Below, one piece after another: positions 41,330 to 44,852 of a DNA stretch of 64,000 nucleotides. This stretch comes from Thermus sediminis (lineage in GTDB: Bacteria > Deinococcota > Deinococci > Deinococcales > Thermaceae): contig NZ_QURO01000004.1 in NCBI RefSeq assembly GCF_003426945.1, positions 620,001-684,000 on the forward strand. The letters run 5' to 3'. Positions within the stretch are counted from its first letter, which is position 1; every line of letters begins with the position of its first letter. The notes beneath the pieces were generated by a model. That model was not told the origin of the DNA. It did not search any database and saw only the letters and a list, made by a program, of their open reading frames with translations. A program made the position numbers and the translations under genes.

Positions 41330-42694
41330 ATGCCTTTGGTCTGCCGGAACCTCATGAGCCTGTTGGAGGAAGGAAACCTGCAGAGCGCCAAGCTCCTCCT
41401 GGGGCAAGCCAGCCTCCAGGAGATCGTGTTTTGCCTTAGGCTGTTGGAGTCCCCCCGCAGGGCCCTCGTCTTCCGCCTACTGGACAAGGAGCGGGCCCTG
41501 GCCGTCTTTGAGGCCTTGGACCGCTCCGAACAGGCCGAGCTGGTCAAGGCCATGGAGGACCCCGACCTCCTGCCCCTCCTGGAGGGCCTGGAGGTAGAGG
41601 AGCGGGTAAGGCTTTTTGAGGAGCTCCCCGCCAAGGTGGTCAAGCGGCTCCTGCAGGAGCTCTCCTCCGAGGCCCGGGAAGGGGTCAGCCTGCTCCTGGG
41701 CTACCCCGAGGGTAGCGCAGGCCGGGTGATGAACCCGGACTACCTGGCCCTCCCCGAGGAAACCACGGTGGAGAAGGCCTTGGAGCGGGTGGAAGACTCC
41801 CTCCTTCCCACAGAGAACCTGGAGGTGGTCTTCGTGCTGGGGCCGGGCAGGATTTACCAGGGCTACGTGCCCCTGGCCCGGCTCGTCAAAGGAGACCCCC
41901 AAACGCCCCTAAAGGACCTGGCGGTGGCCGGGGCCGCCGTCTCCGCCTACGACTCCCAGGACCAGGTGGCCGAGCTGTTCAAGCGCCACCAGTACCCCCT
42001 GGTGGCGGTGGTGGACAAGGAGGGGCGGTTGGTGGGGGCCATCGATGCCGGGCGCGGTGTGGAGCTGGTGGAGGAATACGAAGCCCAGCGGCTCACCACC
42101 TTTGGGGGCATCCTTCCCACAGGCGGCCCCGACGTGGACTACCTCAGGAGCCCTCTAGGCGTGCTCTTCCGGGCCCGGGTGGTCTGGCTGGCCCTTCTGA
42201 CCCTCTTCGGGGTCATCACCTCCACCTACGTGGCCCAACAGGAGGAGATCCTGGAGCGCGCCATCGTCCTCGCCGCCTTCATCGCCCCCATTATCGACAT
42301 GGGGGGGAATACGGGCAGCCAGGCGGCCACCCTGGTCATCCGCTCCCTGGCCCTGGGGCAGGTGCGGCCGCGGCTCAGGGACTACCTCCTCATCCTCAAG
42401 CGGGAGGTGCCCGTGGCCCTGAGCCTGGGTATCGCCATCGGCCTGCTGGAGGCCGTCCTGGCCTTCTTCTCCAAAGGCGTGGGGTGGGACATCCTGCTGG
42501 TGGTGGGTCTGGCCATGGCCACGGTCACCATCCTCGGGGGCTTGATCGGCTCTGCCCTTCCTGTCCTGGCTAAGCGCCTCGGCGCGGATCCCGCCACGCT
42601 AAGCGGCCCCGCCATCACCTCCATCATGGACCTCCTAGGGGTCTTCATGTACTTCGGCTACGCCTACCTCCTTCTGGGCCACCTGCTGGAGTGA
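41330..42694 (+). CDS. mgtE: MgtE-type magnesium transporter paralogue
   Basis: A 454-residue divalent cation channel/transporter. The N-terminal superhelical MgtE_N domain (about 1-125) is followed by two CBS domains (about 130-255; NPDYLALPEETTVEKAL, QYPLVAVVDKEGRLVGAI) and a C-terminal domain of five membrane helices with the hallmark DMGGNTGSQAATLVIRSL. CBS and N domains close the pore when magnesium is plentiful. The sequence differs clearly from the structurally studied T. thermophilus MgtE as I remember it, so this is a second type. GAGGT precedes the ATG; an in-frame ATG lies at 41354. Expression is probably leader-controlled. Confidence 0.9.
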   Translation: MPLVCRNLMSLLEEGNLQSAKLLLGQASLQEIVFCLRLLESPRRALVFRLLDKERALAVFEALDRSEQAELVKAMEDPDLLPLLEGLEVEERVRLFEELPAKVVKRLLQELSSEAREGVSLLLGYPEGSAGRVMNPDYLALPEETTVEKALERVEDSLLPTENLEVVFVLGPGRIYQGYVPLARLVKGDPQTPLKDLAVAGAAVSAYDSQDQVAELFKRHQYPLVAVVDKEGRLVGAIDAGRGVELVEEYEAQRLTTFGGILPTGGPDVDYLRSPLGVLFRARVVWLALLTLFGVITSTYVAQQEEILERAIVLAAFIAPIIDMGGNTGSQAATLVIRSLALGQVRPRLRDYLLILKREVPVALSLGIAIGLLEAVLAFFSKGVGWDILLVVGLAMATVTILGGLIGSALPVLAKRLGADPATLSGPAITSIMDLLGVFMYFGYAYLLLGHLLE

Positions 42695-42706
42695 GCAAGG
42701 GAGGCC

Positions 42707-42735
42707 TTGACCCGAGGGGCCAGGGCGCTTAGAGT
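42707..42735 (+). promoter_or_regulatory. Promoter of the aspS2 leader
   Basis: TTGACC (42707-42712) and TAGAGT (42730-42735) with a 17-base spacer. Transcription should begin near 42742, only a few bases before the leader-peptide ATG at 42746. Confidence 0.65.
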
Positions 42736-42745
42736 TGGACCTAAC

Positions 42746-42775
42746 ATGCGCCCTCGCCTAGGCAACGAAACCTAG
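42746..42775 (+). CDS. Leader peptide MRPRLGNET upstream of aspS2
   Basis: A nine-codon frame, ATG to TAG, beginning about three bases after the predicted transcription start, so it would be read leaderless. It contains one Asn codon (AAC, 42764-42766), followed by Glu and Thr, and its stop is two bases before the antiterminator arm. This is the geometry of a ribosome-mediated attenuator. The peptide is too short to judge by composition; confidence rests on the promoter and the downstream hairpins. Confidence 0.5.
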   Translation: MRPRLGNET

Positions 42776-42777
42776 AA

Positions 42778-42825
42778 GGGGGGCCAGGGCCTAGCCCCCC
42801 CGGCAAGCCGCGGCCGGGGGGGTTT
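42778..42825 (+). promoter_or_regulatory. Antiterminator/terminator switch before aspS2
   Basis: GGGGGGC (42778-42784) can pair with GCCCCCC (42794-42800). Alternatively CCCCCCCGGC (42795-42804) pairs perfectly with GCCGGGGGGG (42813-42822), followed by TTT, making a terminator-like hairpin. The two share the C-tract and exclude each other. A further arm, CGAAACC (42766-42772, inside the leader peptide), can pair with GGTTTCG (42821-42827). The free binding site AAGGAGG is at 42831-42837. Confidence 0.55.
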
Positions 42826-42842
42826 CGCGTAAGGAGGCAAAG

Positions 42843-44111
42843 ATGCGGGTTCTGGTCAAGGACTTGGCAAACCACGTGGACAAGGAGGTGGAGCTCTGGG
42901 GGTTCTTGCACTGGCGAAGGGACCTGGGCAAGGTGCAGTTCCTCCTCCTCCGGGACCGGAGCGGGGTAGTGCAGGTGGTCACCGGAGGCCTAAGGCTCCC
43001 CCTCCCTGAGTCCTCCCTAAGGGTTAGGGGGGCAGTGGTGAGGAGCCCCAAGGCCCCGGGGGGCCTCGAGGTCCACGCCAAGGAGGTGGAGGTCCTCTCC
43101 CCCGCCCTGGAGCCCACCCCGGTGGAGATCCCCAAGGAGGCGTGGCGGGCCCATCCCGACACCCTCCTGGAGTACCGCTACGTCACCCTGAGGGAGGAGA
43201 AGGCCCGCGCCCCTCTAAGGGTGCAGGCCGCCTTGGTACGGGGTTTCCGCCGCTACCTGGACCGGCAGGACTTCACCGAGATCTTCACCCCCAAGGTGGT
43301 TCGGGCCGGGGCCGAGGGGGGCTCGGGCCTCTTCGGGGTGGACTACTTCGAGAAGCGGGCCTACCTCGCCCAGTCCCCCCAGCTCTACAAGCAGATCATG
43401 GTGGGGGTCTTTGAACGGGTCTACGAGGTGGCCCCCGTGTGGCGCATGGAGGAGCACAACACCAGCCGGCACCTCAACGAGTACCTCTCCCTGGACGTGG
43501 AGATGGGCTTCATCGGGAGCGAGGAGGACCTCATGCGCCTGGAGGAGGAGCTCCTCCAGGAGATGCTGGAGGAAGCCCTCACGGCCGCAGGCCGGGAGGT
43601 CGCCCTCCTCAAGGCGGAGTGGCCCTCCCTCCCCGAGGAGATCCCCCGCCTGACCCACGCCGAGGCCCGAAGGATCCTCAAGGAGGAGCTGGGGTACCCC
43701 GCGGGCCAGGACCTCTCGGAAGAGGCGGAAAGGCTCCTCGGCCAGTACGCCAAGGAGCGCTGGGGCTCAGACTGGCTCTTCCTCACCCGCTACCCTAGGG
43801 CCATCCGCCCCTTTTACGCCTATCCCGAGCCGGACGGGACCACCCGGAGCTTTGACCTCCTCTTCCGCGGCCTGGAGATCACCTCCGGGGGGCAACGCAT
43901 CCACCGCCACGAGGACCTGTTGGCAAGCCTGGAGGCCAAGGGCATGGACCCGGAGGGCTTCCAAGGCTACCTCGAGGCCTTCAAGTACGGCATGCCCCCC
44001 CACGGCGGCTTCGCCATCGGGGCGGAAAGGCTCACCCAGAAGCTCTTAGGCCTCCCCAACGTCCGCTACGCCCGGGCCTTCCCCCGGGACCGGCACCGGC
44101 TCACCCCCTAA
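42843..44111 (+). CDS. aspS2: Aspartyl-tRNA synthetase 2, archaeal-type, non-discriminating
   Basis: A 422-residue class II synthetase, much shorter than the roughly 580-residue bacterial AspRS because it lacks the GAD insertion. An N-terminal OB-fold (DKEVELWGFLHWRRDLGKV) binds the anticodon; class II motifs follow (VYEVAPVWRMEEHNTSRHLNEY, GFAIGAERLTQKLLGL). T. thermophilus has both forms; this archaeal-like one charges tRNA-Asn with Asp, which the amidotransferase GatCAB converts to Asn-tRNA. So it makes asparagine as well as charged tRNA. Its leader carries an Asn-codon peptide and a switchable terminator, fitting that role. ATG 42843 follows AAGGAGG. Confidence 0.94.
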   Translation: MRVLVKDLANHVDKEVELWGFLHWRRDLGKVQFLLLRDRSGVVQVVTGGLRLPLPESSLRVRGAVVRSPKAPGGLEVHAKEVEVLSPALEPTPVEIPKEAWRAHPDTLLEYRYVTLREEKARAPLRVQAALVRGFRRYLDRQDFTEIFTPKVVRAGAEGGSGLFGVDYFEKRAYLAQSPQLYKQIMVGVFERVYEVAPVWRMEEHNTSRHLNEYLSLDVEMGFIGSEEDLMRLEEELLQEMLEEALTAAGREVALLKAEWPSLPEEIPRLTHAEARRILKEELGYPAGQDLSEEAERLLGQYAKERWGSDWLFLTRYPRAIRPFYAYPEPDGTTRSFDLLFRGLEITSGGQRIHRHEDLLASLEAKGMDPEGFQGYLEAFKYGMPPHGGFAIGAERLTQKLLGLPNVRYARAFPRDRHRLTP

Positions 44112-44120
44112 GAGCCCCGT

Positions 44121-44136
44121 CCTGGCCTAGGCCAGG
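44121..44136. terminator. Palindromic terminator between aspS2 and sdhB
   Basis: CCTGGCCTAGGCCAGG is a perfect 16-base palindrome lying between two convergent genes, nine bases after aspS2 and 18 bases from the sdhB stop. No T-run on either strand, so the strength is uncertain. Confidence 0.55.
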
Positions 44137-44153
44137 GTGGGACCCCGAAATCC

Positions 44154-44852
44154 TTAGAACCGGTCAAAGAGGATGGCCCGCTTGACCTCCTCGATCAGTT
44201 GGGTCACGGAGATCTCCCGGGGGCAGGCCTCGGTGCAGTTGTAGGCGGTGCGGCACCGCCAGACCCCGCTCCCCGAGCCCAGGGCCTGGAAGCGCTCCCT
44301 TTTCCCCCGGTCCCGGGAGTCAAAGAGGAAGCGGTGGGCCTGGACGATGGCCGCAGGGCCGATGTAGGTGCCGTTGGTCCAGAAGACGGGGCAACTCGTG
44401 GTGCAGGCGGCGCAGAGGATGCACTTGGTGCCGGTGTCAAACCGCTCCCTTTCCTCCGGGGACTGGAGCCTCTCCCTCTGGGGCGGGGGCTCGTCGTTGA
44501 TGAGGTAGGGCTTCACCGCCCGGTAGGCGGCGAAGAAGGGCTCCATGTCCACGATGAGGTCCTTCTCCACGGGGAGGCCGCGGATGGGCTCCACGGTGAT
44601 CACGCTTCCCACGTCCTTCACCAGGGTCTTGCAGGCCAGGCGGTTCCTACCGTTGATGAGCATGGCGTCGGAGCCGCAGATGCCGTGGCCGCAGCTCCGG
44701 CGGAAGGCCAGGGTGCCGTCCTGGTACCACTGCACCTTGTGCAGAAGGTCCAAGACCCGGTCCCAAGGCTCGGCCTCCACCTGGTAGGTGCGCCACTCGG
44801 GCTTCCCGTCCTTGCTGGGGTCAAACCGGAGCACCTTGAGGGTGACCTGCAT
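44154..44852 (-). CDS. sdhB: Succinate dehydrogenase iron-sulfur subunit
   Basis: Electron-transfer subunit of complex II, on the cytoplasmic face of the membrane. The 232-residue protein holds cysteines for all three clusters: SCGHGICGSDAM with a later NRLACKTL for the 2Fe-2S cluster, CILCAACTTSCP and later CRTAYNCTEACPREI for the 4Fe-4S and 3Fe-4S clusters. The second 2Fe-2S ligand position holds Cys-Gly-Ser-Asp, a known variation. Last gene of sdhCDAB. Confidence 0.97.
   Translation of the reverse strand: MQVTLKVLRFDPSKDGKPEWRTYQVEAEPWDRVLDLLHKVQWYQDGTLAFRRSCGHGICGSDAMLINGRNRLACKTLVKDVGSVITVEPIRGLPVEKDLIVDMEPFFAAYRAVKPYLINDEPPPQRERLQSPEERERFDTGTKCILCAACTTSCPVFWTNGTYIGPAAIVQAHRFLFDSRDRGKRERFQALGSGSGVWRCRTAYNCTEACPREISVTQLIEEVKRAILFDRF

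Follow-up and report, generated by a model that had tools for sequence, protein, structure and literature searches.

The aspS2 locus and its product

We analysed a window of 64,000 nucleotides corresponding to contig positions 620001-684000 of the 2.16-Mb Thermus sediminis genome. Within it, mgtE (41330-42694) is followed, after a gap of 12 nt, by a promoter, a short leader frame, three G/C arms, and aspS2, in that order. The coordinates given by an earlier sequence-only reading were exact, base for base. The features are listed below.

42707..42735, + strand: promoter TTGACC-17-TAGAGT (TTGACC at 42707-42712, TAGAGT at 42730-42735)
42742..42745, + strand: region of the predicted transcription start (~42742-42743), placed from the -10-to-ATG distance
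42746..42775, + strand: leader frame MRPRLGNET* including its stop (ATG at 42746-42748, TAG at 42773-42775)
42764..42766, + strand: control codon AAC (Asn), the sole Asn of the frame, 14 nt upstream of arm 1
42778..42784, + strand: arm 1, the 5' antiterminator arm GGGGGGC, 2 nt past the stop codon
42794..42800, + strand: arm 2 of the antiterminator, GCCCCCC, which doubles as the terminator 5' arm and whose pairing co-varies between clades
42795..42825, + strand: terminator hairpin of 10 bp (42795-42804 with 42813-42822) and its tail, TTT at 42823-42825
42832..42837, + strand: aspS2 Shine-Dalgarno AGGAGG, assigned by inspection
42843..44111, + strand: aspS2, nondiscriminating archaeal-type aspartyl-tRNA synthetase of 422 aa, identified by NCBIfam and PDB match

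The promoter was the sole one found in 900 bp (shuffle mean 0.0), and its position was the same in 27/27 Thermus genomes, with the form TTGACC/G-17-TA[AG]A[CG]T and the ATG exactly 10 nt past the -10 box. Across all detected leaders the distance from -10 box to ATG was 7-11 nt. The RNA is thus predicted to be near-leaderless, with a 5' leader of ~3-4 nt and no Shine-Dalgarno sequence ahead of the leader frame. In many Thermus genomes (L005, L006, L009, L016, L031, and others, by inspection) the -10 box TAAACT seems to include the TAA stop of the upstream gene, so that the promoter and the end of that gene overlap.

AspRS2 exceeded the NCBIfam cut-offs for aspartate--tRNA(Asn) ligase (NF003483, 556.6 bits against a cut-off of 353; TIGR00458, 394 against 368.4), and PDB entries 1n9w and 3kfu, which hold the nondiscriminating archaeal-type AspRS, were its best match. 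For T. thermophilus, PMC6523644 describes the second AspRS as nondiscriminating. The genome also encodes an asparaginyl-tRNA synthetase (above cut-off) and GatB. When the genome was searched for the Asn_synthase domain PF00733 and for AsnA, both were absent, and AspRS2 with GatCAB is therefore the sole visible asparagine route. The product had been called an archaeal-type AspRS2 serving as the only route to asparagine through GatCAB, and both the database identity and the missing synthetases agree with this. In the comparison set, aspS2 was split into two overlapping matches in three cases (G008:C1:1161561-1162825, covering L029/L030; G003:C3:1485547-1486811; and G020:C35), each of which is a frameshift or sequencing error.

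Leader peptides and codon spacing across the order

We compared the aspS2 upstream regions of 72 genomes, all from one order; searches widened to the class and the phylum yielded genomes of this order only. Leaders were called from the promoter-like site nearest the gene with an ATG 7-11 nt past the -10 box, and peptide content was left unfiltered. A short closed leader frame was found in 27/27 Thermus, 23/23 other Thermaceae, and 10/10 members of family f4, and Asn was present in all 60 of these leaders. Among the 12 genomes of families f2, f3, and f5, eight passed the same rule and 11 had recognisable versions. Leaders were recovered in L078 and L086 under looser promoter or start rules (MRAAARNFNDNNDRLRAA* and VQVFNVDSRDDDNF*, respectively), L080 is cut by the contig end with a visible frame that ends LNRDDDNRGLGA* by inspection, and L088 had no leader.

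All 44 distinct peptides from the first three groups held Asn; over 2000 trials, nucleotide shuffles without in-frame stops reached at most 18, averaging 7.7. Asn accounted for 20% of leader codons vs 1-2% of residues in three window proteins, and the two other frames of the leader stretch contained 1 Asn codon in 932. AAC as well as AAT was used. Peptide length and the residues besides Asn/Asp varied freely (MRPRLLNNG, MRLPQGNDA, MWPYSRNDA, MCPRSLNNA, MLRTDNNS, MLWLANC, MRGLLNNDR), and selection therefore acts on the meaning of the codons and not on the peptide. Within Thermus, mean identity to the window was 70% for the element vs 56% for the 100 nt upstream of the promoter. The conservation of the frame in 60 genomes could also be read as that of a small functional peptide unrelated to aspS2 regulation, an idea to which we attach almost no credence, as conservation is limited to Asn/Asp and the link between frame and RNA arms is kept.

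The lone Asn codon of the window is unusual, with Asn-Asn or Asn-Asp found in most Thermus. Asp codons stood beside Asn in 10/27 Thermus, 21/23 other Thermaceae, 7/10 f4 genomes, and 8/8 f5-type genomes; Asp-tRNA-Asp is the other product of AspRS2. Asn had been proposed as the control codon before any comparison was made, and this is supported by its presence in 60/60 leaders, but control by Asn alone does not describe most lineages, which add Asp.

The control codons and stop were held at a narrow distance from the RNA arms. In 60/60 genomes the Asn/Asp codons preceded the first G-run past the stop by 9-17 nt and the stop itself preceded it by 3-7 nt, and the first Asn was at 14 or 15 nt in 25/27 Thermus. 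In three Thermus leaders that are one codon longer, the stop touches the G-run and the Asn codons are still at 15 and 12 nt. Arm 1 of family f5 lies within the end of the frame, with the nearest control codons ~11-24 nt ahead of it. Judged on these distances, the spacing fits the requirement that arm 1 would be exposed while a ribosome sits on the control codon and hidden when one sits on the stop. Six members of f5 (L077, L079, L081, L083, L084, L085) also carry a conserved block, GGGGCnTA(A)GCGTCG, past arm 1 and just after the leader stop, which exceeds antiterminator needs.

Leader genes are common near structural genes, and many have been proposed to raise downstream translation by reinitiation, for which the distance peak is ~10-16 nt (PMC4833913). 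The aspS2 frame could act in this way with no amino-acid sensing, although its stop, ~65-100 nt from the aspS2 start, is far off that peak, and reinitiation leaves the invariant Asn and the three-arm RNA unexplained; we consider this very improbable.

Competing helices and terminator tails

Arm 2 is common to the antiterminator and terminator helices, making them mutually exclusive. Terminator pairs were standard in 46/46 distinct hairpins from Thermus, other Thermaceae, and f4 at the central positions, seven or more in number, and several others changed on both sides: +2 (G-C/A-T/C-G), +3 (T-A/C-G/G-C), and +4 (C-G/A-T/T-A). We made these counts from the hairpins themselves because the MAFFT cross-genus alignment places the third arm off by one column. 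The counted hairpins were picked by complementarity, with shuffles as the control; the best-hairpin score was reached by 2/1440 (Thermus), 6/1380, 5/600, and 5/540 shuffles in the four groups. The arms themselves have changed between families. Arms 1 and 2 of f4 are GGGGGAA(G)/(C)TTCCCCC, and the arms of f5 are CTCGGGG/CCCCGAG/CTCGGGG. These sequences differ yet pair, so three-way complementarity survives sequence change. Comparison of leader and stems among relatives had been suggested as a check of the sequence-only reading, and it was run here: order-wide conservation, with covariation, extends to the frame, its Asn codon, the place of the stop, and the two pairings. The whole-leader fold z-score of the window, -2.0, would on its own allow meaningless hairpins and a meaningless frame produced by composition in a G/C-rich region, a possibility that is excluded by the comparative data and has practically zero weight.

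Each leader was folded at 65 °C as far as the terminator loop, and the nucleotides under a ribosome were kept from pairing. For a ribosome placed on the Asn codon, mean arm1:arm2 pairing in the four groups was 0.49, 0.79, 0.58, and 0.80, against 0.00-0.02 for one placed on the stop. The corresponding values for the window were 0.91 and 0.00. Some Thermus sequences formed the specific arm1:arm2 register with a probability of only 0.2-0.4. The order of peptide, antiterminator, and terminator had been likened to classical attenuation, and the arms, spacing, and ribosome-masked folding all agree with that description. Even in ribosome-free RNA the antiterminator formed almost as readily at 65 °C on average, so low expression would require prompt, efficient translation of the leader, which a near-leaderless start would favour. 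A protector or pause hairpin, which trp-type attenuators have but not all attenuators do, could form in the window at 37 °C, and no conserved one was evident across leaders. The terminator loop of Thermus, TCCCCCATGG, is strongly conserved in many members of the alignment, and its C-run could offer arm 1 an alternative partner.

Similar leaders occur elsewhere in the genome. The pattern TTGAC-N17..19-TAnnnT-N6..11-ATG had 18 matches in the genome and 0 in the reversed control. Besides aspS2, five of these (L091, L093, L101, L102, L105) have a short frame and, after it, a G/C hairpin with a T tail, and their codons suit the next gene: ILLPL ahead of leuC, a Leu/Val/Ile-rich peptide ahead of acetolactate synthase (tail TTT), EKK (Lys-Lys) ahead of homocitrate synthase, a single Lys ahead of lysJ, and FGFY (Phe, Phe, Tyr) ahead of DAHP synthase. 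The design of near-leaderless leader-peptide attenuation thus recurs in this genome, with these five as likely examples. Inspection of the regions upstream of AspRS1, AsnRS, and GatB found no such leader. Another genomic DNA match (L002) was coding-looking G/C-rich sequence with no leader anatomy and was rejected as chance.

The run of T past the aspS2 hairpin is 0-3 in Thermus (3 in the window) and 3-6 in the other, Meiothermus-like Thermaceae genera and f4. By standard rules the Thermus runs are weak; Thermus stems are much stronger, with a mean of -18.8 vs ~-12 kcal/mol at 65 °C. The hairpin of the other genera and f4 is, as far as its sequence tells, a standard intrinsic terminator. A simple terminator scan of the window did not flag the hairpin because its T tail is short. 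The terminator-like stem and TTT described for the window are present as stated, but a real U tract is absent in most Thermus. The same sensor could accordingly have another output in this genus, with the hairpin, once formed, impeding ribosome loading at the aspS2 Shine-Dalgarno (translational attenuation) or favouring Rho. T runs of merely 0-3 and a hairpin that ends 16-23 nt upstream of the aspS2 start codon are compatible with this; the Shine-Dalgarno, however, is outside both arms, the same hairpin in other genera is followed by 3-6 T and lies 21-53 nt ahead of the start codon, which is the intrinsic-terminator pattern, and equally short tails occur elsewhere in the genome, such as the TTT of the acetolactate synthase leader. 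We regard a translational or Rho-dependent output as unlikely. Given the other leaders with similarly short tails and the stronger Thermus stem, transcription termination is kept as the likely output in Thermus.

A model of aspS2 attenuation and its relation to known systems

Directly observed anatomy, conservation, covariation, codon identity, and spacing, together with consistent thermodynamics, make us highly confident in proposing that the aspS2 leader acts as a ribosome-mediated transcription attenuator. Asparagine shortage would very probably be sensed by ribosome stalling, after which more enzyme would be made. From these features we infer the transcription start, leader translation, termination, and the asparagine response, as follows. 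RNA polymerase would start ~3-4 nt ahead of the leader ATG and a ribosome would load at once. With ample Asn-tRNA-Asn (plus Asp-tRNA-Asp in most relatives), the ribosome would reach the stop and cover arm 1, leaving arm 2 to pair with arm 3 in a terminator that would halt transcription upstream of aspS2. When Asn-tRNA is short, the ribosome would stall at the Asn codon, 14 nt upstream of arm 1, and the free arm 1 would capture arm 2 before arm 3 is made; no terminator would form and aspS2 would be transcribed. AspRS2 would then make Asp-tRNA-Asn, which GatCAB would amidate to Asn-tRNA-Asn, the cell's asparagine synthesis. A model of hyper-sensitivity names two sources, one of them a regulatory codon that is rare in bulk mRNA (PMC1183508), and the low Asn frequency in the sampled window proteins would fit that source.

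With moderate confidence we further suggest that the attenuator predates the split of Thermaceae from the more distant families of the order, that it reads both Asn and Asp codons, that a tRNA synthetase serving as an amino-acid biosynthetic enzyme thereby answers to the pool of charged tRNA of its own making, and that hot-living Thermus use a very strong, nearly U-less terminator.

A cmscan of 41500-44500 gave no T-box match even at E<=1, and the only Rfam match, a flavivirus stem-loop (21.4 bits against a cut-off of 38.3), was dismissed as chance. T-boxes control asnS, asnA, and aspS in Firmicutes, where the T-box RNA binds tRNA directly. The aspS2 leader would respond to the same signal, uncharged tRNA-Asn, and has related targets, but unlike those RNAs it matches neither the T-box nor any other credible Rfam family.

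Biosynthetic operons of Thermus have leader-peptide attenuators, including those of trp and leu and the Lys leader of homocitrate synthase. These share with the aspS2 leader the genus, the near-leaderless start, the G/C-rich hairpin, and the short T tail; they serve biosynthesis enzymes and read other residues, whereas the biosynthetic enzyme behind the aspS2 leader is a tRNA synthetase. The trpL attenuator of Sinorhizobium meliloti is leaderless as well, with Trp codons controlling the trp operon in alpha-proteobacteria. It resembles the aspS2 leader in a leader peptide that begins at or near the RNA 5' end and in classical competing hairpins, and differs from it in codon, target operon, and lineage.

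Attenuators of synthetase genes are known from pheST of gamma-proteobacteria and from trpS and leuS of Streptomyces (PMC1262725). Like these, the aspS2 leader combines codons of the synthetase's own amino acid with mutually exclusive antiterminator and terminator and a synthetase target. Unlike them, it has Asn/Asp codons, is near-leaderless and order-wide in the Thermus lineage, and has as its target an AspRS that is nondiscriminating and makes a mischarged product for GatCAB to convert. The sequence-only reading knew of no such attenuator for AspRS2, and in the open-access full text searched we likewise found no description of an aspS2/AspRS attenuator or of a leader-peptide attenuator with Asn codons. 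Set beside these systems, the aspS2 leader is classical leader-peptide attenuation with a new target and a new residue.

For bacteria whose only asparagine synthesis takes place on tRNA, the aspS2 leader offers a direct and testable explanation of how the pathway is adjusted: the sensor, Asn codons read by the ribosome, would measure the pathway's end product, Asn-tRNA-Asn. It also points to near-leaderless leader peptides as a recurring regulatory design in Thermus, and its versions across the order, some having a U tract and some lacking one, form a naturally occurring set of terminators in which termination at high temperature can be studied.
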